A program made the position numbers and the translations under genes. Source: Streptomyces sp. SS1-1 (GTDB lineage: Bacteria > Actinomycetota > Actinomycetes > Streptomycetales > Streptomycetaceae). From it: DNA of 64,000 nt. Within the stretch, counting starts at the first letter, position 1, and the number at the start of each line of letters is the position of its first letter. Location of the stretch: the NCBI RefSeq assembly GCF_008973465.1, contig NZ_WBXN01000004.1, positions 1,798,001 to 1,862,000 of the forward strand. The letters run 5' to 3'. The notes under the pieces were generated by a model. That model ran no database searches. It worked only from the letters and a program-made list of their open reading frames with translations, and was not told the origin of the DNA. Below, piece by piece: positions 4,445-15,045 of this stretch.

Positions 4445-4529
4445 CGGCTCTCCCGTCGTCGTCATGTGTCTGGGGGTCCCCCGGGAACAAGGCCGGGAGC
4501 AGGTGCAAGGGACGACGTTGGCCCTCTGC

Positions 4530-4556
4530 GTGATCGCAAAATTTCGTGCAGGTTAC
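4530..4556 (-). promoter_or_regulatory. GlnR-like binding boxes upstream of gltB
   Basis: On the minus strand I read GTAAC, six bases, GAAAT, six bases, ATCAC. This follows the actinobacterial GlnR pattern gTnAc-n6-GaAAc-n6-gTnAC with correct spacing over three boxes; the fourth box is degenerate. It lies about 90-110 bases before the gltB start, where a promoter would be expected. GlnR controls nitrogen assimilation genes in streptomycetes. Direct control of this gltB is inference from the pattern only. Confidence 0.45.
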
Positions 4557-4601
4557 ATGATGGAACGACTCTCGGGAACCGGGATACTCCGTTCCATCAT
4601 G
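4556..4601. repeat. 12-bp perfect inverted repeat in the gltB upstream region
   Basis: CATGATGGAACG (4556-4567) is mirrored by CGTTCCATCATG (4590-4601) around a 22-base spacer. The arms contain GGAAC, and the spacer contains a further GGAACC. It abuts the GlnR-like boxes. It could be an operator for a dimeric regulator or a structured 5' leader. No known consensus is matched with confidence. Confidence 0.5.
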
Positions 4602-4841
4602 CGGACACCACGGCCTGCGGCAGGGGTCCCGCGCACGTGGCTCGAAGTATGTGGTGGACCGCACGAGGCAGGTCCATGCCCGACGGTCCTCAGGGAGGCG
4701 GAAGGGGCGTCGTCGCCCACCCCGCGCGTGCACCCCAGGCGTCATTGCCCACAGTGCTTACGGCTCATGCCCGGTGGTCATGCCCCCGAAACCCGCGAGT
4801 AACGGAAACTTATGCGGTCCCTCGCATACGTTCCAGCCGCG

Positions 4842-5573
4842 CTATCCTACGGCCGTTCCGAAGAAACTGCCCAGGGCGTACGTCACACCGGCCGCCGCGC
4901 CACCCAGGGCGAGCTGCCGCAGACCGCTGTACCACCAGCTGCGCGCCGTGACCTTGGCGACGACCGCGCCGCACAGGAACAGCCCGAAGAGCGCGACCAG
5001 CACCGCCGGCCACAGCGTGGTGGCGCCGAGCAGGTACGGCAGGACCGGCAGCAGGGCGCCGAGGGCGAAGGACCCGAACGACGACACGGCCGCGACCAGC
5101 GGCGAGGGCAGGTCGCCCGGGTCGATGCCGAGCTCCTCGCGGGCGTGTATCTCCAGGGCCACCTCGGGGTCGCGGGAGAGCTGCTCGGCGACGGCGCGCG
5201 CGAGGTCCGCGTCCACACCCCGGGCCTCGTAGAGGGCCGCCAGCTCGGCCTCCTCGTCCTTGGGGTGCTTGGTCAGCTCGCGCCGCTCGACGGCCAGTTC
5301 GGCCTCGACGAGCTCGCGCTGCGAGGCGACCGAGGTGTACTCGCCGGCCGCCATGGAGAAGGCGCCGGCGGCGAGGCCCGCGAGGCCGCTGAGCACGACG
5401 GTCTGGTGGCTGACCGCACCGCCGGCGACACCGGTCATGAGGGCGAGGTTGGAGACCAGGCCGTCCATCGCGCCGAAGACCGCGGGGCGCAGCCAGCCGC
5501 CGTTCACATCGCGGTGGGTGTGGTTGTCGCGGTGCGCCTCGTGCAGCGCGGCCTCGGTGTCGATGATGGCCAT
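4842..5573 (-). CDS. VIT1/CCC1 family iron/manganese transporter
   Basis: A 243-residue protein of the vacuolar iron transporter (CCC1/VIT1) family, which moves Fe2+ or Mn2+ across a membrane. The N-terminal transmembrane pair carries the family pattern FGAMDGLVSNLALMTGVAGG and GAFSMAAGEYTSVASQRE. A cytoplasmic acidic helical segment (about residues 85-160, rich in Glu and Asp) matches the metal-binding domain. Three hydrophobic segments fill the last 80 residues. ATG 5573 is preceded by a GGGGGGAA ribosome site. Two iron-box-like palindromes lie in the 120 bases upstream, which suggests iron-responsive control. The family call is firm; substrate and direction (import or efflux) are not visible. 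Confidence 0.9.
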   Translation of the reverse strand: MAIIDTEAALHEAHRDNHTHRDVNGGWLRPAVFGAMDGLVSNLALMTGVAGGAVSHQTVVLSGLAGLAAGAFSMAAGEYTSVASQRELVEAELAVERRELTKHPKDEEAELAALYEARGVDADLARAVAEQLSRDPEVALEIHAREELGIDPGDLPSPLVAAVSSFGSFALGALLPVLPYLLGATTLWPAVLVALFGLFLCGAVVAKVTARSWWYSGLRQLALGGAAAGVTYALGSFFGTAVG

Positions 5574-5593
5574 GAAGTTCCCCCCGGAGGAAG

Positions 5594-5612
5594 TCAGGTA
5601 AGGCTGTCTTTA
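5594..5612. promoter_or_regulatory. Iron-box-like palindrome (proximal) before the VIT gene
   Basis: TCAGGTAAGGCTGTCTTTA matches 13 of 19 positions of the actinobacterial IdeR/DmdR iron box TTAGGTTAGGCTAACCTAA. It lies 21 bases in front of the VIT start codon. A second similar site is at 5675-5693. The functional role is inferred from the neighbour being a metal transporter. Confidence 0.45.
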
Positions 5613-5674
5613 GACGCGTTCTACTCTTCGACAACGCCAAATCTACGCTTCCGCATTCCCTCCCGCCAGCAAGG

Positions 5675-5693
5675 AAAGGCTGGGCTAACCTGC
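5675..5693. promoter_or_regulatory. Iron-box-like palindrome (distal) before the VIT gene
   Basis: AAAGGCTGGGCTAACCTGC matches 13 of 19 positions of the IdeR/DmdR box, including an unbroken GGCTAACCT half. It is placed about 100 bases upstream of the VIT start and also lies upstream of the divergent ARH operon. Confidence 0.45.
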
Positions 5694-5848
5694 GGTTTTC
5701 CCTGGAAACCCGCCACACGGCCGGGGCCTCGGAGGACAGCTCGACCGGGTGACAGTGGCCCCGGTGAGGCTCAGGTCAACCGCCGACGGTGGGACACATC
5801 CGCAAAGGGCTCCGCGCCCTGGCGGAACCCCCGGAGGAGAGGCCGCGT

Positions 5849-6898
5849 ATGGCATCGATCGCCCGCATCCCCCCGGTTCCGGCGCCCGGTGACGCCGGAG
5901 AACTCCGCGAGCGGGCCCGCGGCGCCCTGCTGGGCCTGGCGGTCGGCGACGCGCTGGGCGCTCCCGCCGAGAACCTGAAGCCCTCGGAGATCCGTGCCCG
6001 GTGGGGCCGGATCACCGGGTTCGTGGCCGAGCGCCCCTGCGGCACCGACGACACCGAGTACGCGATCTTCTCGGGGCTGCTGCTCGCCCGGCACGGCTCG
6101 GCCCTCACCCCGGCCCATGTCGAGGCGGCCTGGCACGAGTGGATCGCCGGCCGCGCCGAAGGACCGTTCCGGGGCGCCGGGTTCAGCGAGCGGGGCACGC
6201 TGGAGAACCTGCGCCGCGGTCTCGCCGCCCCCATCTCCGCCCAGCACCGGCACGCCTGGAGCGACGGGCTGGCGATGCGGGCGGCGCCCTTCGGGGTGTT
6301 CGCGGCGGGCCGCCCGGCGGAGGCGGCCCGGCTGGTCGCCATCGACGGCTCGGTGAGCCACGACGGCGAGGGCATCTACGGCGGCCAGGCCGTGGCCGCC
6401 GGAGTGGCCGCGGCGATGGCGGGGGCGCCGACCCCGGTGGTGGTGGCCTCGGCGCTGGCCGTGGTCCCGGACGACTCCTGGACGGCCCGCTCCCTGCGCC
6501 GGGCCGCCGCGGTCGCCCACGAGGGGGAGCGCGCGGTGCGCTCCGCGGTGGTGATCGGCGGCTACCCGTGGACCGACCTCGCCCCCGAGGCGGTCGCCCT
6601 GGCCTTCGGGGCGTACGCGGCGGCCGACGGCGACTTCGTCCAGGCGGTCCTGACGGCGGTGAACATGGGCCGCGACGCCGACACGACGGCCGCGGTCGCG
6701 GGCGCGCTGGCCGGGGCGACGCGGGGCGAGGGGGCGATCCCCCCGGACTGGGCGGCCGCGATCGCCCCGGCCCGCGGCAGCTGCCTGCCGTCGATGGCGG
6801 GCCACCACGTCCTGGACGTGGCGGAACTGCTGATCCCCGGCGACGACCGCAAATGGATCACCGGAGCCCTCACCCCCACCAAGGAGCCCCTCGGATGA
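5849..6898 (+). CDS. ADP-ribosylglycohydrolase (DraG/ARH) family protein 1
   Basis: First gene of a seven-gene operon. A 349-residue dinuclear-metal hydrolase of the ADP-ribosylglycohydrolase fold, predicted to cleave an N- or O-linked ribosyl bond. All three hallmark motifs are intact: GLAVGDALGAP (residues 29-39), GTDDT (65-69) and GRDADT with metal-binding Asp276 and Asp278. I chose ATG 5849, which follows GGAGGAGAGG; an in-frame GTG at 5789 would add 20 residues without a good ribosome site. The stop overlaps the next start as ATGA. No substrate can be read from sequence: known relatives act on ADP-ribosylated proteins, ADP-ribose or nucleoside-like small molecules. Confidence 0.88.
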   Translation: MASIARIPPVPAPGDAGELRERARGALLGLAVGDALGAPAENLKPSEIRARWGRITGFVAERPCGTDDTEYAIFSGLLLARHGSALTPAHVEAAWHEWIAGRAEGPFRGAGFSERGTLENLRRGLAAPISAQHRHAWSDGLAMRAAPFGVFAAGRPAEAARLVAIDGSVSHDGEGIYGGQAVAAGVAAAMAGAPTPVVVASALAVVPDDSWTARSLRRAAAVAHEGERAVRSAVVIGGYPWTDLAPEAVALAFGAYAAADGDFVQAVLTAVNMGRDADTTAAVAGALAGATRGEGAIPPDWAAAIAPARGSCLPSMAGHHVLDVAELLIPGDDRKWITGALTPTKEPLG

Positions 6899-8478
6899 CT
6901 CCCCCGACCCCCTGGTCCGACCCCACCCCCGCGGACACATCCCCACCCACAGCGGCTCCGGCGATCCTCCCGCCACCGGACACCCCGGCCTCCCCCGACG
7001 ACGACCCCACCGGAACGGCCCCACCCACCCCCACCCTCCTCCTCCCACCCCCCGAACCCGCAGCCGCCGACGAGCACGCCCCGCCGGGGCCACCTGCACC
7101 CGACCACGAAAGCCGCACACCCACCCCCGCCCTCCTCCTCCCACCCCCCGAGCCCGCAGCCGCCGACGACGAGCACGCCCGGCCGGGGCCACCCGCACCC
7201 GACCACGAAAGCCGCACGGGTGGTGCGGGTGGGAAGCTCCCGGCCGAAGGCGAAGCCGAGGCCGTACTCGCCCCCGCGCCGGCGCAGCATCCTCGTGCGG
7301 GTGGGAAGCTCCGGGCCGAAGGCGAAGCCGAGGCCGTCCCCACCCACCGGCCGGCGCAGCCGACAGCGCACCGCGTCAGAGGGCTCCTCCTCGGCCTGGC
7401 CGCAGGCGACGCCGCCGGATGGCCCGCCGCCCGGCACCGCGCCGCCCGGATGCCGGACTGGACCCGCCGTCTGACCCGCGAACTGGAGACGTTCGCCGAG
7501 CAGAACGCCACCACCACCCTCCCCGTGCCGATCGCCCTCAACCAGCCCCCCGAACCCCTCCGCCTCGGCCCCTCCGACGACGCCGAGTGGGCGGCCTTCA
7601 CCGCCGAGGCCCTGCTGCGGGCCGGCGACGACACCGCCCTCGGCGACCTCAGCCGCGACCGCCGCGTACGCGCCGCGATCGACCTCACCTGGAACGCCGT
7701 CGCCGGCGAGGTCGCCGCCGCCGCCGACCGCGCCCCGGAAGTCGAGTCGGCGGTCCTCCCCCTGCGCGCCCGCATCTCCGTCCGCGCGGGCCTCGGCAAC
7801 CTCGCCACCGGCCTGCGCCCGCCCGCCACCGGCCACGACAACCCGCACTTCTTCGACGACGCGGCCTGCGTCCGGGCGTGCGTCCTGGCCGTCGCCCACC
7901 CCGGCGACCCCGCCCGCGCCGCCGACCTCGCCGAGTTCGACGCCCGGTACACCCAGGACGGCGACGGCGTCCTCGGCGCGCGGGCGATGGCGGCGGCCGT
8001 ATCGCTCGCCCTCACCGGCACGCCCACCGGCGCCTGCGTGGCGGCGGCGCTCACCGAGCTGCCCGCCGGGACGGAGATCGGCCGCAACGCCCGGCACGCC
8101 GTGGACCTCGCCCACGCCGCCGCCGGCGCCTTCGCCCTGGTCCCCCTCCTGGAGCACCAGATCGTCGACCACGTCTACAGCTACGGCGTCGCCGCCGCCG
8201 AGACCGTGCCGGTCGCCCTCGCCCTGACCCTCGCCGCGGGCGGCCGTATCGCCGAGGCGGTCCCGGCCGCCGCCTGTCTGTCCCGGGTGGCCGACTCGGC
8301 CCCGGCCCTGGCCGGCGCCCTGACCGGCGCCCTGGGCGGCGACGCCTGCGTCCCGGCCGCCTGGCGGGACACCTGCCGCACCCTGTCCGGCTGTGCGCTC
8401 CCCCGGCTCACCGGCACCGACCTGGTGGAACTCGCCGACCTCCTGGAAGCCGCACAACCGCACCCACCAGGAGGATGA
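6895..8478 (+). CDS. Divergent ADP-ribosylglycohydrolase-like protein with repetitive Pro-rich N terminus
   Basis: 527 residues. Residues 1-155 are low-complexity Pro/Ala/Glu sequence with internal duplications. From about residue 160 a DraG/ARH domain follows (GLLLGLAAGDAAGWP). Its metal motifs are altered: the usual TDDT is SDDA (Asp228 and Asp229 kept), and the C-terminal GRDADT is SRVADS, so the first Asp is Val465 while Asp467 remains. The enzyme may be weak, use a different metal site, or act as a non-catalytic partner. It is translationally coupled to both neighbours: ATGA overlap upstream, and 7 bases from the next start downstream. The domain call is good; activity is uncertain. Confidence 0.78.
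   Translation: MTPPTPWSDPTPADTSPPTAAPAILPPPDTPASPDDDPTGTAPPTPTLLLPPPEPAAADEHAPPGPPAPDHESRTPTPALLLPPPEPAAADDEHARPGPPAPDHESRTGGAGGKLPAEGEAEAVLAPAPAQHPRAGGKLRAEGEAEAVPTHRPAQPTAHRVRGLLLGLAAGDAAGWPAARHRAARMPDWTRRLTRELETFAEQNATTTLPVPIALNQPPEPLRLGPSDDAEWAAFTAEALLRAGDDTALGDLSRDRRVRAAIDLTWNAVAGEVAAAADRAPEVESAVLPLRARISVRAGLGNLATGLRPPATGHDNPHFFDDAACVRACVLAVAHPGDPARAADLAEFDARYTQDGDGVLGARAMAAAVSLALTGTPTGACVAAALTELPAGTEIGRNARHAVDLAHAAAGAFALVPLLEHQIVDHVYSYGVAAAETVPVALALTLAAGGRIAEAVPAAACLSRVADSAPALAGALTGALGGDACVPAAWRDTCRTLSGCALPRLTGTDLVELADLLEAAQPHPPGG
7021..7336 (+). repeat. Two pairs of direct repeats inside the ARH2 coding sequence
   Basis: A tandem pair of about 95-100 bp (roughly 7021-7116 and 7117-7218) encodes LLLPPPEPAAAD followed by EHA and PGPPAPDHESR twice. 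Just after it, a 42-bp element at 7223-7264 recurs at 7295-7336 with one mismatch and encodes AGGK-L-AEGEAEAV twice. All keep the reading frame. The GTGCGGGTGGG core of the 42-bp unit resembles short intergenic repeats I associate with streptomycetes, which is recollection and unchecked. Confidence 0.8.
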
Positions 8479-8485
8479 TTCCGGC

Positions 8486-9661
8486 ATGACGCCCAAAGCA
8501 GATGAAAGCAGTGGTCCGCGTCTCGACGAACGGATCACCGGCGCCCTGGTGGGCGCGGCGGTCGGCGACGCCCTCGGCGGCCCGGTGGAGGGCTACTCCC
8601 CCGACCAGATCCTGGAGCGCCACGGCGGCCGCGTCCACGGCGTCGTCGGCCCCTGGAACGGCGACGACTGGCGCACGGCACGCCCCATCGCGCCGTACCA
8701 CAAGGGCGACGGGCACGTCACCGACGACACCTTGATGACGCACGCCCTGGTCCGCGTCTACGCGGCCGTCCGTGACCACCTCGACGCGTACGCGATCGCC
8801 GGCCACCTGGTCCCGGACCTGATGACCACCCCGCGCTGGATCCCGGAGCTGGAGGCGGAGGCGCTTCCCCTGCACCGGATCTTCCTCGCGGAGAAGTGGC
8901 TGGTGGCCCGCCTGCACTACGGGCACGTGGACCCCCGCGAGGCCGGCGTCGGCAACATCGTGAACTGCGGCGCCGCGATGTACATGGCCCCGGTCGGCCT
9001 GGTGAACGCGGCCGACCCACGGGCCGCGTACGCCGAGGCCCTGGACGTCGCGGGCGCGCACCAGTCGTCGTACGGACGGGAGGCGGCCGGCGTCTTCGCG
9101 GCGGCGGTCGCGGCGGCCTGCGTCCCGGGCGCCACCCCGGAGTCCGTCGTCGACACCTGCCTCGCGCTCGCCAAGGACGGCACCCGCGAGGCCATCGAGA
9201 AGTGCTGCGAGACCGCCGCGGCCCACCGCGACGTCGAGTCGGCGCTGGTCCCGCTGCGCGAGGCGGTCGCCCCCTACGACACCGTCGGCCCCGACTACCG
9301 CCGGCCCTCGCTCGGCGCCCGCCGCCCCTCCCGGCTGCACGCGATCGAGGAGCTGCCGATCGCCCTGGCCATGGTGCTGATCGCCGGCGGCGACCACCGC
9401 CGGGCGGTGCTCGGCGCGGTCAACTACGGGCGGGACTGCGACTCCATCGCGACGATGGCGGGCGCGGTGACGGGCGCCCTCGGCTCCCCCGTCCCGGACG
9501 AGTGGGCGAAGACGGTCGCGGAGGCCAGCCGCCTCGACCTGTGGGAGCCGGCCCGCGTCCTGACCGACGTGGCCCGCGAGGTGCACGCCCGTGACCTGGC
9601 CCGCCGCCGCGCGCACGAGGCGGCGTTCCGGGTGCTGGAGGGCCGGCCGTGCTCCGACTGA
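8486..9661 (+). CDS. ADP-ribosylglycohydrolase (DraG/ARH) family protein 3
   Basis: 391 residues with a complete ARH core: GAAVGDALGGPVEGY near residue 25, VTDDT with Asp80 and Asp81, and NYGRDCDS with Asp317 and Asp319. The ATG at 8486 has a strong AGGAGGAT ribosome site. Compared with its upstream neighbour all expected metal ligands are kept, so this is a likely active paralogue. It overlaps the next gene by 13 bases. The four ARH proteins are clearly different from one another and so are old duplications or independent recruits, each probably with its own substrate or role. Confidence 0.88.
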   Translation: MTPKADESSGPRLDERITGALVGAAVGDALGGPVEGYSPDQILERHGGRVHGVVGPWNGDDWRTARPIAPYHKGDGHVTDDTLMTHALVRVYAAVRDHLDAYAIAGHLVPDLMTTPRWIPELEAEALPLHRIFLAEKWLVARLHYGHVDPREAGVGNIVNCGAAMYMAPVGLVNAADPRAAYAEALDVAGAHQSSYGREAAGVFAAAVAAACVPGATPESVVDTCLALAKDGTREAIEKCCETAAAHRDVESALVPLREAVAPYDTVGPDYRRPSLGARRPSRLHAIEELPIALAMVLIAGGDHRRAVLGAVNYGRDCDSIATMAGAVTGALGSPVPDEWAKTVAEASRLDLWEPARVLTDVAREVHARDLARRRAHEAAFRVLEGRPCSD

Positions 9662-11055
9662 CCTGGGTCCAGCCCGAGGACCTGCTCGGCCACGAACTGC
9701 GGCAGGCCGCCCTGGACGGCCGGGAGCCCGCGCGGATCGCGGCCCGCTGGGAGGCGGCGGGCGGCCGTACGGCCCCGCTCCGGGCGGGCGCCTCGGCGGA
9801 GCCGGCGTCCCGGTACCTGCGGACGCTGGCCGAGGACCTGCTGGACGAACTGGCGGACCTGCCCAGCCGGACCGCCGACCGCGAGCCCACCGGCCTCGCC
9901 GCCATCAGGGCGCTCTGCCCCCACTGGCCGGCGCCGCCCGCCGCCCCCGTCCGGACCACACCGGCCCGGCTGGAGGCCGCCTGGCTGGGCCGGGCCGTCG
10001 GCTGTCTGCTCGGCAAGCCGGTCGAGAAGCTCCCCCTCGACGCCCTCCGCGCGCTCGCCCGGCCCACCGGGAACTGGCCCCTGCGCGGCTACTTCACGGC
10101 CAGGGGCGTCCCGGCGGACCTGCTGGCCGCCCACCCCTGGAACCGCCGCTCCGCCGCAACCTCGCTCGCCGAGAACATCGACGGCATGCCGGAGGACGAC
10201 GACCTCAACTACCCGCTGCTCAACCTCCTCCTGCTCCAGCGGTACGGCCGCGCCTTCACCACCGCGGACGTGGCCCGGCTCTGGCTGGACGAGCTGCCCG
10301 CGGGCCGTACGTTCACGGCCGAGCGCGTCGCGCTGCGCAACCTCCTCCTCGGTGTCGAACCGCCGCACACGGCCCGCCACCGCAACCCGTTCCGCGAGTG
10401 GATCGGCGCCCTCATCCGGGCCGACGTCCACGGCTGGACCCACCCCGGCGATCCGGGCGCCGCGGCCGAGCAGGCCCACCGGGACGCCACCCTCACCCAC
10501 ACCGCCACCGGCGTCCACGCGGCGATGTTCGCGGCGGCGGTCATCGCCCGCGCGGCGAGCGCGTCCGGCCCCGGGGACGTCCACGCCTGTCTGCGCGCCG
10601 GGCTCGCCGTGATCCCGCCGGAGTCCCGGCTGGCCCGGGCGGTCGGGCACGCGACGGCGCTGGCCCGGACGCACGAGGACTTCGACACCGTCGTCGACCT
10701 GCTCCACGCCCGGTACGGGCCGGACCACCACTGGGTCCACGCCGTCCCCAACACGGCCCTGATCGCCGCCGCCCTCACCCACGCGGACGGCGACTTCACC
10801 GGCTCCATCTGCCGTGCCGTGTCCGGCGGCTGGGACACCGACTCCAACGGGGCGACGGCGGGCAGCGTCGCCGGTCTCCTCGCCGGCTCCCCCGCCGCCC
10901 TGCCCGACCGCTGGACCGCCCCGCTGAAGAACCGTCTCGCCACCTCCGTCGGCGGCCTCGACGGCATCGGCTTCGACACCCTCGCCGGGCTCACGCACGA
11001 CCTCGCCCACGACCCCGCCCCGGACCTCAGCCCCTTGGAGGCCACCCGCCCATGA
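9649..11055 (+). CDS. ADP-ribosylglycohydrolase (DraG/ARH) family protein 4
   Basis: 468 residues, the longest intact paralogue. About 105 N-terminal residues precede the ARH core (LGRAVGCLLGKPVEKL). The acidic metal motif is PEDDDLNYP with Asp183-185 in place of TDDT, and the C-terminal motif is GGWDTDSNG with Asp396 and Asp398. This variant motif set is typical of a distinct ARH subgroup. GTG 9649 starts inside the end of the previous gene, and the stop overlaps the ribokinase start as ATGA, so translation is probably coupled. Substrate unknown. Confidence 0.85.
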   Translation: MLRLTWVQPEDLLGHELRQAALDGREPARIAARWEAAGGRTAPLRAGASAEPASRYLRTLAEDLLDELADLPSRTADREPTGLAAIRALCPHWPAPPAAPVRTTPARLEAAWLGRAVGCLLGKPVEKLPLDALRALARPTGNWPLRGYFTARGVPADLLAAHPWNRRSAATSLAENIDGMPEDDDLNYPLLNLLLLQRYGRAFTTADVARLWLDELPAGRTFTAERVALRNLLLGVEPPHTARHRNPFREWIGALIRADVHGWTHPGDPGAAAEQAHRDATLTHTATGVHAAMFAAAVIARAASASGPGDVHACLRAGLAVIPPESRLARAVGHATALARTHEDFDTVVDLLHARYGPDHHWVHAVPNTALIAAALTHADGDFTGSICRAVSGGWDTDSNGATAGSVAGLLAGSPAALPDRWTAPLKNRLATSVGGLDGIGFDTLAGLTHDLAHDPAPDLSPLEATRP

Positions 11056-11945
11056 CCGACATCGTCGTGCTCGGCAGCACGAACATGGACCTCGTCACCT
11101 ACGTAGAGAAGGCCCCGCAGCGCGGCGAGACCGTCACCGGCCGGGAGTTCCGCACGATCCCCGGCGGCAAGGGCGCCAACCAGGCGACCGCCGCGGCCCG
11201 CGCGGGCGGCGACGTGCTGATGATCGGCGCCGTCGGCAACGACATGTACGGCACCCGGCTGCGCTCCGCCCTCGAACAGTCCGGCGTCGACACCGACGAC
11301 CTGCGCACGGTCGAGGGCCCCTCGGGCACCGCGCACATCGTCGTCGACGACGAGGGCGGCAACGCGATCGTCGTCATCCCCGGCGCCAACGGCACCCTCG
11401 ACCATCTGAGCCCCGGCGACGAGGGCGTCATCGCCGACGCCGACACCCTGCTGCTCCAGCTGGAGATCCCGCTGGCCGCCGTGCTCGCGGGCGCCCGCGC
11501 CGCCCGCCGCCACGGCGTCCGCACGATCCTCACCCCGTCCCCCGCCCAGCCGCTCCCCGACGAGCTCCTCGGCGCGATCGACCTGATCGTCCCCAACGAG
11601 CACGAGGCCGCCACCCTCACCGGCCGCGCCGACCCCCGCCAGGCGGCCGGCGCCCTCCTCGACCTCGTCCCCGAGGTGGTCGTCACCCTGGGCGCGTCCG
11701 GCAGCCTGTACGCCGCCCGGGGCGCCGAGCCGCTGACCGTCCCCGCCCCGCGGGTCACCGCCGTGGACTCCACCGGCGCCGGCGACACCTTCGTCGGCGC
11801 GCTCGCGGTGGCGCTCGGCGAGGGACGGCTGATGCCCGACGCGCTGACCTGGGCGTCCTGCGCGGCCGCCCTGTCCGTGCAGCGGGAGGGCGCCACGGTG
11901 TCGATGCCGTACCGCCCCGAGATCGACGAACGGTACGCGTCATGA
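11052..11945 (+). CDS. Ribokinase-type PfkB sugar kinase
   Basis: 297 residues. PfkB-family kinase that phosphorylates ribose or a ribose-containing compound at the 5 position. Visible motifs are the substrate-side GGKGANQATAAARAGGDV at about residues 40-57, the NAIVVIPGAN strand typical of true ribokinases, and the C-terminal DSTGAGDTF with the catalytic Asp and anion hole. It is coupled by ATGA to the fourth ARH gene and to the CoA-transferase gene. Sitting beside four predicted ribosyl hydrolases, it plausibly phosphorylates ribose or a ribosyl product that they release; that link is inference. Confidence 0.87.
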   Translation: MTDIVVLGSTNMDLVTYVEKAPQRGETVTGREFRTIPGGKGANQATAAARAGGDVLMIGAVGNDMYGTRLRSALEQSGVDTDDLRTVEGPSGTAHIVVDDEGGNAIVVIPGANGTLDHLSPGDEGVIADADTLLLQLEIPLAAVLAGARAARRHGVRTILTPSPAQPLPDELLGAIDLIVPNEHEAATLTGRADPRQAAGALLDLVPEVVVTLGASGSLYAARGAEPLTVPAPRVTAVDSTGAGDTFVGALAVALGEGRLMPDALTWASCAAALSVQREGATVSMPYRPEIDERYAS

Positions 11946-13141
11946 CCGGGGCCGCCCCGGCGCCCCTGGCCGGACTGCGTGTGCTCGACCTGGCCACCCT
12001 GTTCGCCGGACCCCTCGCCGCCACCCTGCTCGGCGACTTCGGCGCGGAGGTGATCAAGGTCGAGCACCCGGAGAAGCCCGACCCGTCGCGCGGCCACGGC
12101 CCCGCCAAGGACGGGGTGGGACTGTGGTGGAAGGTCCTCGGCCGCAACAAGCGCACGATCACCCTGAACCTGTCCCGGCCCGGTGGCCGCGCCACCCTGC
12201 TGCGGCTGGCCGCCACCGCGGACGTCGTCATCGAGAACTTCCGCCCCGGCACCCTGGAGAAGTGGGACCTCGGCTGGCCGGAGCTGTCGGCCGCCAACCC
12301 CCGTCTGGTGCTGACCCGGGTCACCGGCTTCGGGCAGTTCGGGCCGTACTCCCACCGCCCCGGCTTCGGCACGCTGGCCGAGGCGATGAGCGGCTTCGCC
12401 GCGCTCACCGGGGAGCCCGACGCGCCCCCGACGCTCCCGCCGTTCGGTCTGGCCGACTCGATCGCGGGCCTCGCCACCGCGTACGCCGTGATGACGGCCC
12501 TCGCGGCCCGCGAGCGCACCGGCGAGGGGCAGGTCGTGGACATGGCCCTCATCGAGCCGATGCTGTTGGCCCTCGGACCCCAGACGACCTGGTACGACCA
12601 GCTCGGCTACGTCCAGGAGCGCACCGGCAACCGCTCCGCGAACAACGCCCCCCGCAACACCTACCGCACGGCCGACGGCACCTGGGTCGCCGTCTCCACG
12701 TCCGCCCAGTCGGTCGCCGAGCGGGTGATGCGGCTCGTGGGGCGCCCCGACCTGATCGACGAGCCGTGGTTCGCGACGGGCGCGGACCGGGCCCGGCACG
12801 CCGACGTGCTGGACCGGGCGGTCGGCGACTGGATCGCCCGGCACACCCGCGCGGACGTGCTGGCCGCCTTCGAGAAGGCGGAGGCGGCGGTGGCCCCGGT
12901 CCAGGACGTCCGGGACGTGATGACGGACCCGCAGTACGCCGCGCTCGGCACCGTGACCACCGTCGACGACCCCGAGCTGGGCGCGCTGCGCATGCAGAAC
13001 GTCCTCTTCCGGCTCTCCGCCACGCCCGGCGCGATCCGCTGGGCGGGCCGCCCGCACGGCGCGGACACCGACGAGGTCCTCACCGGCCTCGGCCTGTCCC
13101 CCGCCGACCTCGCGGCCCTGCGGGAGGAGGGCGCCCTGTGA
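11942..13141 (+). CDS. CaiB/BaiF family III CoA-transferase
   Basis: 399 residues. Family III CoA-transferases move CoA between carboxylic acids through an aspartyl-CoA intermediate. The N terminus has the family start (GLRVLDLATLFAGPLAA, GAEVIKVEHP), and the likely catalytic residue is Asp172 in GLADSIAG, matching the position of Asp169 of formyl-CoA transferase. It is coupled by ATGA upstream and GTGA downstream to a CitE-type lyase. Family III transferases paired with CitE/MCL-type lyases activate and then cleave C4-C5 hydroxyacids such as malate or citramalate in known pathways; the acid used here is not visible. Confidence 0.87.
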   Translation: MTGAAPAPLAGLRVLDLATLFAGPLAATLLGDFGAEVIKVEHPEKPDPSRGHGPAKDGVGLWWKVLGRNKRTITLNLSRPGGRATLLRLAATADVVIENFRPGTLEKWDLGWPELSAANPRLVLTRVTGFGQFGPYSHRPGFGTLAEAMSGFAALTGEPDAPPTLPPFGLADSIAGLATAYAVMTALAARERTGEGQVVDMALIEPMLLALGPQTTWYDQLGYVQERTGNRSANNAPRNTYRTADGTWVAVSTSAQSVAERVMRLVGRPDLIDEPWFATGADRARHADVLDRAVGDWIARHTRADVLAAFEKAEAAVAPVQDVRDVMTDPQYAALGTVTTVDDPELGALRMQNVLFRLSATPGAIRWAGRPHGADTDEVLTGLGLSPADLAALREEGAL

Positions 13142-13989
13142 CCGGCCCGGCGGAGACCAGCCCGTACCCGCTGACCTGGCTGTACGCCCCCGGGGACCGT
13201 CCGCGGGTGGTCGCGGGGGCGCTCGCGTCGGGCGCCGACGTCGTCATCGTCGACCTGGAGGACGCGGTGGCCCCGGACCGCAAGGACCATGCCCGGGCGG
13301 CCACGGCCGAACTGCTCTCCGCGCCGGAGCACCCGGTGCCGGTCCACGTCCGGGTGAACGCCCTGGACACCCCGGCGGGGGCGCGGGACCTCGCGGCGCT
13401 GGCCGCCCTGCCGGGTCTGGCCGCGCTGCGGCTGCCGAAGGTGACGTCGGCCGACCAGATCATCCACCTCGCCGAGACCACCCCGGCCGCGGCGCCGGGC
13501 ACGACCCGGCTGCACGCGCTGCTGGAGTCGGCCCTCGGCATCGAGCGGGCGCACGCGATCGCGTCCGCGCATCCGGCCCTGCGCGGCATCTCGCTCGGCG
13601 AGGCGGACCTGAGGGCCGACCTGGGTGTACGGGGCGACGCCGGGCTCGACTGGTGCCGTTCCCGCGTCGTGGTCGCCGCGCGGGCGGCCGGGCTGCCCCC
13701 GCCCGCCCAGTCCATCCACCCGGACATCCGCGATCTGGAGGGCCTGGCGGCGACCTGCGCGCACGGCCGCGCGCTCGGTTTCCTGGGCCGCGCGGCCATC
13801 CACCCCCGGCAGCTGCCCGTGATCGAGCGGGCGTATCTGCCCACGGAGCGGGAGCTGGAGCAGGCGGAGACGATCGTGAAGGCGGCGGCGACCGACCAGG
13901 GGGCGCTGGCCCTGCCGGACGGGCGGTTCGTGGACGCGGCGGTGGTGGCGGCCGCGCGGCGGACGCTGTCCCTGGCCCGCCGCGGCTGA
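13138..13989 (+). CDS. CitE/HpcH-type CoA-ester lyase
   Basis: 283 residues, TIM-barrel lyase of the CitE/malyl-CoA lyase family, which cleaves or forms beta-hydroxyacyl-CoA. The sequence shows DLEDAVAPDRKDHAR after the first strand, the Arg of HVRVNALDT, the metal-binding Glu of LLESALGIE and the Asp in GEADLRADLG. GTG 13138 overlaps the stop of the CoA-transferase. It is the last gene of the operon, followed at once by a strong hairpin terminator. The neighbouring CoA-transferase probably supplies its CoA ester. Candidate products are acetyl-CoA plus glyoxylate or pyruvate; this is inferred from the family. Confidence 0.85.
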   Translation: MTGPAETSPYPLTWLYAPGDRPRVVAGALASGADVVIVDLEDAVAPDRKDHARAATAELLSAPEHPVPVHVRVNALDTPAGARDLAALAALPGLAALRLPKVTSADQIIHLAETTPAAAPGTTRLHALLESALGIERAHAIASAHPALRGISLGEADLRADLGVRGDAGLDWCRSRVVVAARAAGLPPPAQSIHPDIRDLEGLAATCAHGRALGFLGRAAIHPRQLPVIERAYLPTERELEQAETIVKAAATDQGALALPDGRFVDAAVVAAARRTLSLARRG

Positions 13990-13996
13990 GACACGG

Positions 13997-14027
13997 CGAA
14001 GGGCGCCCGGTGGCCGGGCGCCCTTCG
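13997..14027. terminator. Hairpin terminator between the ARH operon and lgt
   Basis: Perfect 14-bp stem CGAAGGGCGCCCGG / CCGGGCGCCCTTCG with a 3-base loop, 7 bases after the citE-like stop. It lies between convergent genes and can serve both strands. Confidence 0.85.
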
Positions 14028-14046
14028 TGCTGTGCCGGTTCGCGGG

Positions 14047-15045
14047 TCAGCCCTTGCGGGCCGACTCGGCCTCGTCGCGCGACTCCTTCGTGTCCTCGAC
14101 CGCGTCCTCGGACTCGGGCTTGGACTCTGCCCCGGTCTTGGACTCGGCCTCGGACGTCTTCCCGTCCTCGGTGGCGGCGTCGGTCTCCGCCTTGTTCTCG
14201 TCGGACGCGCCGCCCGAGTCGCCGTCGGCCGCACCGGGCTCGACGACGGGTTCCCGCCCGGGCCGCTTCTTCGCCGACACCACGATGTACAGCACGGCGA
14301 GCAGGAAGACCAGCAGCGCGGTCCAGTTGTTCAGCCGCAGGCCGAGGATGTGGTGGGCGTCGTCGACCCGCATGTACTCGACCCAGAACCGGCCGACGCA
14401 GTACGCGGCGACGTACAGGGCGAACGCCCGGCCGTGGCCCATCTTGAAACGGCGGTCGGCCCAGATCACCAGCAGGGCGACGCCGATGCACCACAGGGAC
14501 TCGTACAGGAACGTCGGATGGTAGGTGCCCGGCACCCGCCCGTCCGTGGAGGACGTGATCTCCAGCGCCCACGGGACGTCGGTGCGGCGGCCGTACAGCT
14601 CCTGGTTGAACCAGTTGCCCCAGCGGCCGAGGGCCTGCGCGAGGGCGATGCCGGGGGCGACGGCGTCGGCGTACGCGGGGAGCGGGATGCCACGGCGGCG
14701 GCAGCCGATCCACGCGCCGAGCGCGCCGAGCGCGATCGCGCCCCAGATGCCGAGACCGCCCTCCCAGATCTTGAAGGCGTCCACCCAGTCACGGCCCTCG
14801 CTGAAGTACAGCTCGTAGTCCGTGATCACGTGGTAGAGGCGCCCGCCGACCAGGCCGAACGGGACGGCCCAGACCGCGATGTCCGCGACCGTGCCGGCGC
14901 GCCCGCCCCGGGCGATCCAGCGCTTGTTGCCGAGCCAGACGGCTACGAAGACACCGATGATGATGCAGAAGGCGTAGCCGCGCAGCGGAATGGGACCGAG
15001 GTGGATCACCCCGCGCGACGGGCTGGGAATGTAGGCAAGTTCCAT
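14047..15045 (-). CDS. lgt: Prolipoprotein diacylglyceryl transferase
   Basis: 332 residues. Lgt attaches diacylglycerol to the lipobox Cys of prelipoproteins in the membrane, the first step of lipoprotein maturation. The core shows GGLGIWGA, GRWGNWFNQELYG (the Lgt signature) and HPTFLYES, with about seven membrane segments over residues 1-265. The last 65 residues are a highly charged Glu/Asp/Lys/Ser tail absent from E. coli Lgt, as is common in actinobacteria. The second lipoprotein enzyme, lspA, is also in this window at 52555-53154. It lies 86 bases downstream of the DsbA-like gene. Confidence 0.95.
   Translation of the reverse strand: MELAYIPSPSRGVIHLGPIPLRGYAFCIIIGVFVAVWLGNKRWIARGGRAGTVADIAVWAVPFGLVGGRLYHVITDYELYFSEGRDWVDAFKIWEGGLGIWGAIALGALGAWIGCRRRGIPLPAYADAVAPGIALAQALGRWGNWFNQELYGRRTDVPWALEITSSTDGRVPGTYHPTFLYESLWCIGVALLVIWADRRFKMGHGRAFALYVAAYCVGRFWVEYMRVDDAHHILGLRLNNWTALLVFLLAVLYIVVSAKKRPGREPVVEPGAADGDSGGASDENKAETDAATEDGKTSEAESKTGAESKPESEDAVEDTKESRDEAESARKG

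Follow-up and report, generated by a model that had tools for sequence, protein, structure and literature searches.

In the ribose utilisation system (RUS) of Bacteroides, ARH-type genes occur together with ribokinases, and to our knowledge this system has neither a CUT1/LacI module nor a CaiB-CitE pair. In the itaconate (RipABC) and citramalate coenzyme A (CoA) pathways, CoA activation is followed by a RipC/CitE-type lyase; RipA is a class I CoA-transferase. The DraG/ARH1/ARH3 hydrolases share the PF03747 fold and, according to the review by Rack et al. (PMC7050489), have a binuclear metal centre that is bridged by an aspartate (Asp316 of human ARH3), depend on both metals and on the cis 2'',3''-hydroxyls of the ribose to position the substrate and, in the case of the known ARH1 and ARH3, cleave alpha-1'' bonds. 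Streptomyces coelicolor is described in two reports (PMC9411070, PMC5087735) as rich in DraG/ARH-type hydrolases, and SCO2028-SCO2031 or SCO2028-SCO2030 are named there among its uncharacterised homologues. Here, we compare these systems with a seven-gene block of Streptomyces sp. SS1-1, which lies on the plus strand at positions 5849-13989 of a 64,000-nucleotide stretch (the window; contig NZ_WBXN01000004.1) and encodes four ARH-fold (PF03747) proteins, a ribokinase, a class III CoA-transferase and a CitE-type lyase. We propose, with a probability of roughly 0.55, that the block is a catabolic operon for an imported ribofuranosyl-containing compound, which would be converted into ribose 5-phosphate and acyl-CoA or oxo units. 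The gene content and order, their conservation, the linkage to importer and repressor genes at related loci and the motif states of the encoded proteins were observed directly. The genes and the element that follows them are:

ARH1: 5849-6898, plus strand, ARH-fold protein of 349 residues (PF03747, 197 bits), metal motifs GTDDTEY and GRDADTT intact
ARH2: 6895-8478, plus strand, ARH-fold protein (PF03747, 117 bits) with a Pro-rich N-terminal extension and an altered C-terminal DxD (SRVADSA)
ARH3: 8486-9661, plus strand, ARH-fold protein (PF03747, 164 bits), metal motifs intact
ARH4: 9649-11055, plus strand, GTG start, ARH-fold protein (PF03747, 168 bits), motifs EDDDLN and GWDTDS
RbsK: 11052-11945, plus strand, PfkB-family ribokinase (PfkB, 218 bits; TIGR02152, 310.2 bits, cut-off 299.65)
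CaiB: 11942-13141, plus strand, class III CoA-transferase (CoA_transf_3, PF02515, 417 bits) with GLADS
CitE: 13138-13989, plus strand, CitE/RipC-type acyl-CoA C-C lyase (HpcH_HpaI, PF03328, 128 bits)
Dyad: arms 14000-14010 and 14014-14024, no strand, perfect 11-bp dyad between the convergent citE and lgt, no T run

The coordinates and names given in a first-pass annotation of the window were borne out by the profile matches, and all four ARH proteins (117-197 bits) exceeded the curated PF03747 cut-off of 26.2 bits. That annotation had described nearly all of the junctions as overlapping; five of the six do (by 4, 13, 4, 4 and 4 bases), and the remaining one, ARH2-ARH3, is a 7-base gap. The 7.8 Mb genome has nine PF03747 matches, four of which are located inside 5.2 kb here, a clustering that is not due to chance. 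Among 129 related loci that were examined, 126 had ARH3; 28 were dropped for their short flanks and three exact duplicates were removed from the remaining 98, which left 95 full-context loci in which the presence of a gene was called by tblastn (E 1e-5, at most 9.5 kb from ARH3). CaiB and CitE were present at 90 of these, ARH4 at 94, ARH1 at 79 and RbsK at 72. The frequencies of CaiB-CitE and RbsK beside ARH3 agree with the earlier view that the genes form one conserved unit, and regular unlinking of the ARH genes from the kinase and CoA genes, which was looked for over the 95 loci, was not seen.

The first-pass annotation had found no transporter or regulator and suggested that the substrate may be internal, a claim that did not survive the comparison with other loci. 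At all 53 loci outside the gltB/lgt site, genes encoding LacI, two permeases and a solute-binding protein lie beside the ARH genes; Pfam matches on examples (L112, L113, L117, L118, L127 and L128) were LacI, two BPD_transp_1 permeases and SBP_bac_1. Outside Streptomyces, the block comes after these genes, and some Streptomyces loci at other sites (L147, L157, L159, L164, L198, L201 and L209) also have LacI and the importer. As in LacI-controlled CUT1-type loci, putative intracellular hydrolases are thus clustered with a repressor and an importer, whereas here the hydrolases have the ARH fold, and genes for a CoA-transferase and a C-C lyase come after theirs. Among the 42 loci at the gltB/lgt site, one had all four genes (L179, Streptomyces), one had LacI only (L199) and 40 had none. 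The window itself did not qualify as a LacI/CUT1 locus; its neighbours are the VIT, gltB, lgt and trp genes. The opposite deletion was found in genome G023, in which the transporter genes alone lie between VIT and lgt and the enzymes are gone. An ARH3 tree with 87 rows requires two state changes for the linked binding protein and at least 14 for RbsK. The linkage to the importer and LacI looks ancestral and later lost at the window's site, so that the window looks like a stripped descendant. An internal substrate as the ancestral state was rejected because of the linked importer, but was retained as an alternative reading of the operon in Streptomyces. The best NCBIfam match of one linked LacI was RbsR, below its cut-off (181 of 382 bits). 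The nearest solved chain to the binding protein was Lmo0181 (5f7v), which we take to be an oligosaccharide binder and which is too distant for naming the sugar.

Moreover, 26 of the 53 loci outside the gltB/lgt site, and none of the 42 at it, encode an additional protein of roughly 620-690 residues, the C-terminus of which is an FGE-sulfatase/SUMF1 domain. In its AlphaFold model, which is of moderate quality (mean pLDDT 70), the N-terminal barrel resembles the GH13/alpha-amylase type, with fold matches of Z up to 17.3 for the barrel (1jf5, rmsd 3.9, 299 aligned) and about 15 for SUMF1 structures. The predicted fold suggests that the substrate may have a further alpha-glycosyl part, the linkage of which it does not give. 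A search of the window's genome, made without a positive control, gave no match to this protein.

The first-pass annotation had counted four hydrolases. All four proteins have the ARH fold, but hydrolase status is doubtful for ARH2, which lacks one conserved metal-ligand Asp, and three hydrolases plus a variant are therefore possible. In ARH1, both T/S-DDT and DxDT were kept in all 97 aligned rows, and both metal motifs of ARH3 in 124 of 126 rows, the other two being gapped. For ARH4, E/A-DDD was found in 119 of 119 rows and DTDS in all 111 ungapped rows printed of these 119. ARH2 kept its N-terminal DD in 98 of 101 rows, while the first Asp of DxD was lost in every one of the 82 ungapped rows printed, where Val, Leu or some other residue takes its place (of the 101 rows, three were gapped and 16 not printed). 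We presume that the lost residue corresponds to Asp314 of human ARH3. ARH2 may thus be a conserved variant that is not a hydrolase, possibly a pseudoenzyme or a partner subunit. Its N-terminal extension (window 6895-7350) is Pro-rich and internally repeated, and its length varies among species. ARH3 was the most conserved member, with a mean column identity of 68-72% in two alignments, and is the best candidate for the core hydrolase. In ARH4, an N-terminal stretch of about 105 residues falls outside the Pfam match.

Among the measured pairs, the paralogues were 36% (ARH4-ARH1), 32% (ARH4-ARH2) and 37% (ARH3-ARH1, with a 45-residue stretch at 52%) identical. Identities to their own counterparts in the loci of other families (L112-L131) were 45-64% for ARH1, 32-53% for ARH2, 55-68% for ARH3 and 45-61% for ARH4. 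Because the measured identities within the block (32-37%) are lower than those across families for ARH1, ARH3 and ARH4 (45-68%), the four ARH genes are old paralogues that belong to distinct subfamilies, and the idea that a single ARH gene was recently duplicated in tandem was rejected on the same comparison. The proteins differ from the DraG/ARH1/ARH3 hydrolases in several respects, even though both metal motifs are intact in ARH1, ARH3 and ARH4. The DraG equivalog TIGR02662 (cut-off 337 bits) scored 74.7 for ARH1 and 40 for ARH3, and the Tri1 ADP-ribosylarginine hydrolase model NF041672 (cut-off 490 bits) 42.2 and 38.1, respectively, with no match to ARH2 or ARH4 for either model. The loops in which the G-x-G...MR stretch usually sits diverge in the alignments (WIGA.IR in ARH4, FDDAA in ARH2), and the genomic context is sugar import rather than ADP-ribosylation.

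RbsK passed the ribokinase model TIGR02152 and remained below a second one, PRK11142 (269.2 of 341 bits). It was absent at 14 of the 42 gltB/lgt-site loci, where none of the other six genes is as dispensable. The best NCBIfam match of CaiB was the succinate-glutarate CoA-transferase NF052585, at 242.2 bits and thus below the cut-off of 750. Its nearest solved chains were 4ed9 (an unnamed CaiB/BaiF protein), followed by benzylsuccinate, succinate-hydroxymethylglutarate and formyl-CoA transferases, and the Asp of GLADS is presumably the catalytic-type Asp. The putative motif residues of CaiB and CitE were kept in most of the rows printed. The closest solved chain to CitE is 3qll, which was deposited as a citrate lyase and which we take to be RipC. 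In this respect, the block resembles the itaconate and citramalate pathways. It differs from RipABC in that its CoA-transferase is of class III and neither RipA nor the RipB hydratase is present; additionally, CitE scored 173.2 bits against the itaconate RipC profile NF038242, below the cut-off of 375. In L112-L131, CitE was 31-59% identical to the window's protein and hence more variable than CaiB (61-71%). Relatives of these proteins also occur outside the block. In the same genome, a 200-kb contig (L097, G000:C1:159500-165378) carries a second CaiB (61%) and CitE (39%) alongside an amidohydrolase, a cyclase and MmgE/PrpD, which suggests a cluster for the degradation of rings or dicarboxylates that employs the same CoA module. 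Roughly 5 kb separate an ARH4-like paralogue (47%) from a further CitE homologue (L103, G000:C4:5970320-5977083), and in several other Streptomyces genomes this pair is 5-16 kb apart by coordinates.

In the proposed catabolic operon, whose complete form is found in other actinobacteria, a LacI-type repressor would control a CUT1-type ABC (ATP-binding cassette) importer and the enzymes. ARH3 and ARH4 would be the core of the predicted hydrolysis, ARH1 an accessory and ARH2 a variant that is inactive or a partner. Judging from the fold, the motifs and the known ARH chemistry, the two-metal site would cut the glycosidic bond of a cis-diol furanose, most likely alpha-D-ribofuranose. A ribokinase, encoded in the block or elsewhere in the genome, would convert ribose into ribose 5-phosphate, as the ribokinase profile supports. 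By family, CaiB would activate a C4-C5 hydroxy-dicarboxylic acid, freed from the substrate or co-delivered with it, probably with succinyl-CoA as the acyl donor, and CitE would cleave the CoA ester into an acyl-CoA and a 2-oxo acid. The lineage of the window would have lost LacI and the importer from this locus; a related, unlinked importer is still encoded elsewhere in the genome. That the window's strain takes up this substrate too is inferred, as are the alpha-ribofuranosyl nature of the bond, the acid and the order of the steps. ARH1-4 are more likely nutrient-digesting enzymes than ADP-ribosylation erasers. More tentatively, this ARH-fold branch may consist of nutrient furanosidases that act on an imported alpha-ribofuranoside, the aglycone of which would yield a citramalate- or malate-type acid. 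Fungal alpha-D-ribofuranosides are mentioned in the literature and are a possible source class for the substrate. Methanopterin was considered but not adopted, as its 2-hydroxyglutarate is ill-suited to CitE-type cleavage; neither were alpha-ribazole and griseolic acid.

Several observations weigh against this catabolic proposal. RbsK is missing at 23 of the 95 loci, with the at least 14 changes on the tree, and ribose is therefore not secured as a product; the earlier suggestion of a pathway to ribose 5-phosphate and acyl-CoA remains the best fit in outline, with its ribose part weakened. CaiB-CitE is not beside the block at five of the 95 loci, and a related GntR-CaiB-CitE module is found elsewhere in those genomes, which means that the two halves are separable. 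The block itself is split in genome G012. Block and binding protein do not co-occur significantly among 37 Streptomyces genomes (Fisher p = 0.20), and the binding-protein profiles name no sugar. The acyl donor of CaiB and the substrate of CitE are predicted from family resemblance only. In favour of the proposal, purified SCO2028 and SCO2030 showed no activity on uracil-alpha-ADP-ribose in a published report (PMC13036486); this is weak evidence, as it concerns one substrate and storage was in a buffer with 1 mM EDTA. By numbering and the position of SCO2038 in the trp locus, stated in another report (PMC5036795), SCO2028 should be the orthologue of ARH1 and SCO2030 that of ARH3.

Among the alternatives, the one that survives best, though still unlikely, is that the stripped Streptomyces operon turned to internal recycling, for example of a ribosylated cofactor or a secondary metabolite. 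It would account for the absence of both LacI and the transporter at 40 of the 42 gltB/lgt-site loci, and in the window's genome the best match in a search for LacI was 38% over residues 4-233. That genome has a PermA-PermB-SBP triad at C4:5729440-5732557 (L212 7441-10558); neither LacI nor a block enzyme is present among the genes called around it. The triad's binding protein shares 60% identity with its L179 counterpart and falls within the linked ones (100% SH-aLRT, 34 Streptomyces-type rows, both linked and unlinked) in a quick tree with a very long outgroup and flagged long branches. Of the 37 Streptomyces genomes, 22 had both the block and the binding protein, seven the block only, four the binding protein only and four neither. 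The lack of a significant tie between the two fits internal recycling, and the view that the unlinked importer must serve the operon is not supported statistically. On the other hand, 22 of the 29 block-bearing genomes retain a related importer (at the block in G014, elsewhere or on another contig in 21), for which reason a simple loss of the importer was rejected for most of them, and the enzymes are conserved with their motifs intact. The unlinked triad may serve the operon.

Somewhat more doubtful is that one transcript serves two pathways, with ARH-RbsK degrading an imported riboside and CaiB-CitE belonging to a separate dicarboxylate pathway that travels along. The genomes in which an ARH locus without CaiB had been seen (the full-context L175, L176, L182, L200 and L201, together with L190, which has a short upstream flank, and L196, which is too short downstream for calling CaiB) were searched, and all seven had a CaiB that was 63-67% identical elsewhere, each adjoining a CitE. 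The regulator beside the pair was typed as GntR/FCD in L263, and its relatives adjoin six of these seven unlinked pairs, none being called in L266; in L268 and L269, the pair is followed by a TRAP DctM gene. The TRAP partner would fit a free dicarboxylic acid as the substrate of the unlinked type. In four Nonomuraea genomes (L263-L266), a CUT2 (ribose-type) ABC transporter set adjoins the unlinked pair, as typed by Pfam on L263 and by relatives elsewhere. These unlinked pairs, the variability of CitE relative to CaiB and the loci that lack RbsK or CaiB-CitE would fit two pathways, but the linkage of CaiB-CitE at 90 of the 95 loci extends over many families, and all seven genomes without CaiB at the ARH locus carry a close relative of it. 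The seven unlinked rows form their own group on the CaiB tree (97/94), and most ARH-linked CaiB fall in one supported clade of 28 rows (97/93), outside of which the ARH-linked L127, L136 and L208 are also placed. Moreover, in Streptomyces, the presence of CaiB tracks the block: at E 1e-120, CaiB matched 27 of the 29 block-bearing genomes and none of the eight block-less ones (p ~1e-6, which is optimistic given shared ancestry), and the two without a match are fragmented assemblies. Finally, it is improbable that the ARH proteins are true hydrolases that reverse ADP-ribosylation, with RbsK and the CoA genes recycling ribose and the importer being incidental: the fold, the intact metal motifs in three of the four proteins and the naming of SCO2028-SCO2031 as DraG/ARH candidates in PMC9411070 and PMC5087735 fit this, but the adjacent LacI and importer at 53 of 53 loci, the scores of ARH1 far under the DraG and Tri1 cut-offs (75 of 337 and 42 of 490 bits), the divergent loops, the inactivity of the two presumed orthologues on uracil-ADP-ribose in PMC13036486 and the lack of a transferase gene in the block argue against it.

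The distribution of the system is patchy. When ARH4 was searched for in 61 related genomes, 30 gave a match; these all belong to the same genus, and in some the match was only a 43-49% paralogue or fragments; the block was scored as present in 29 of the 37 Streptomyces genomes. In a class-wide sample of Actinomycetes, ARH3 was found in 48 of 296 genomes and 10 of 114 genera, and in a phylum-wide sample in eight of 296, all of the same genus (the six best first-look candidates per genome were scored). The best 80 of at least 535 matches found with an alignment headed by a freshwater ARH3, which are not a random sample, included Microbacteriaceae, Cellulosimicrobium, Glycomyces, Kribbella, Jiangellaceae, Micromonospora, Streptosporangiaceae, metagenome-assembled genomes (MAGs) of Nanopelagicaceae and two MAG contigs labelled Trueperaceae. 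The order gltB-VIT-ARH1-2-3-4-(RbsK)-CaiB-CitE-lgt-trp was observed in most of 27 Streptomyces loci, the exceptions being L062 and L063 at other places, L064, in which ARH2 was not seen, and cut contigs. In G012, the block is distributed over four sites of the chromosome (L063, L104, L105 and L108) with matches to all seven genes retained, which reflects either a rearrangement or an assembly error. In Kribbella pratensis, ARH3 and ARH4 are separated by an open frame of 823 residues (L207 11126-13597) that has no Pfam match.

In the window, a divergent VIT-family gene and gltB lie upstream of the block, and lgt, a DsbA-like gene and the trp genes are convergent downstream. A terminator scan of 13900-14100 based on a T-run rule found none, and an Rfam scan of 4500-14200 found nothing; the dyad at 14000-14024 is perhaps the end of the citE and lgt transcripts. 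Between the VIT gene and ARH1, iron-box-like sites are present at 5594-5612 and 5675-5693, each matching 13 of 19 positions of what we take to be the actinobacterial iron box consensus. These sites might tie VIT, and perhaps the operon too, to iron control. In an alignment of 29 intergenic regions, including that of the window, part of the VIT-ARH1 stretch was conserved.

By numbering, four of the eight DraG/ARH homologues in PMC9411070 appear to be the proteins of this operon. Our literature searches for the gene combination and the S. coelicolor locus tags, one of which was covered in part, did not find the operon described as a catabolic pathway; as far as these searches go, it is real, conserved and undescribed as a catabolic unit. 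The complete loci of Microbispora, Herbiconiux and Glycomyces offer a binding protein and a repressor that are usable for finding the substrate directly. If the proposal is true, several Streptomyces "ADP-ribosylation erasers" would belong to carbon metabolism, a furanosidase role would be added to the fold, and caution would be needed against equating ARH genes with ADP-ribosylation signalling. Soil and freshwater actinobacteria would then also have a pathway that can be tested.

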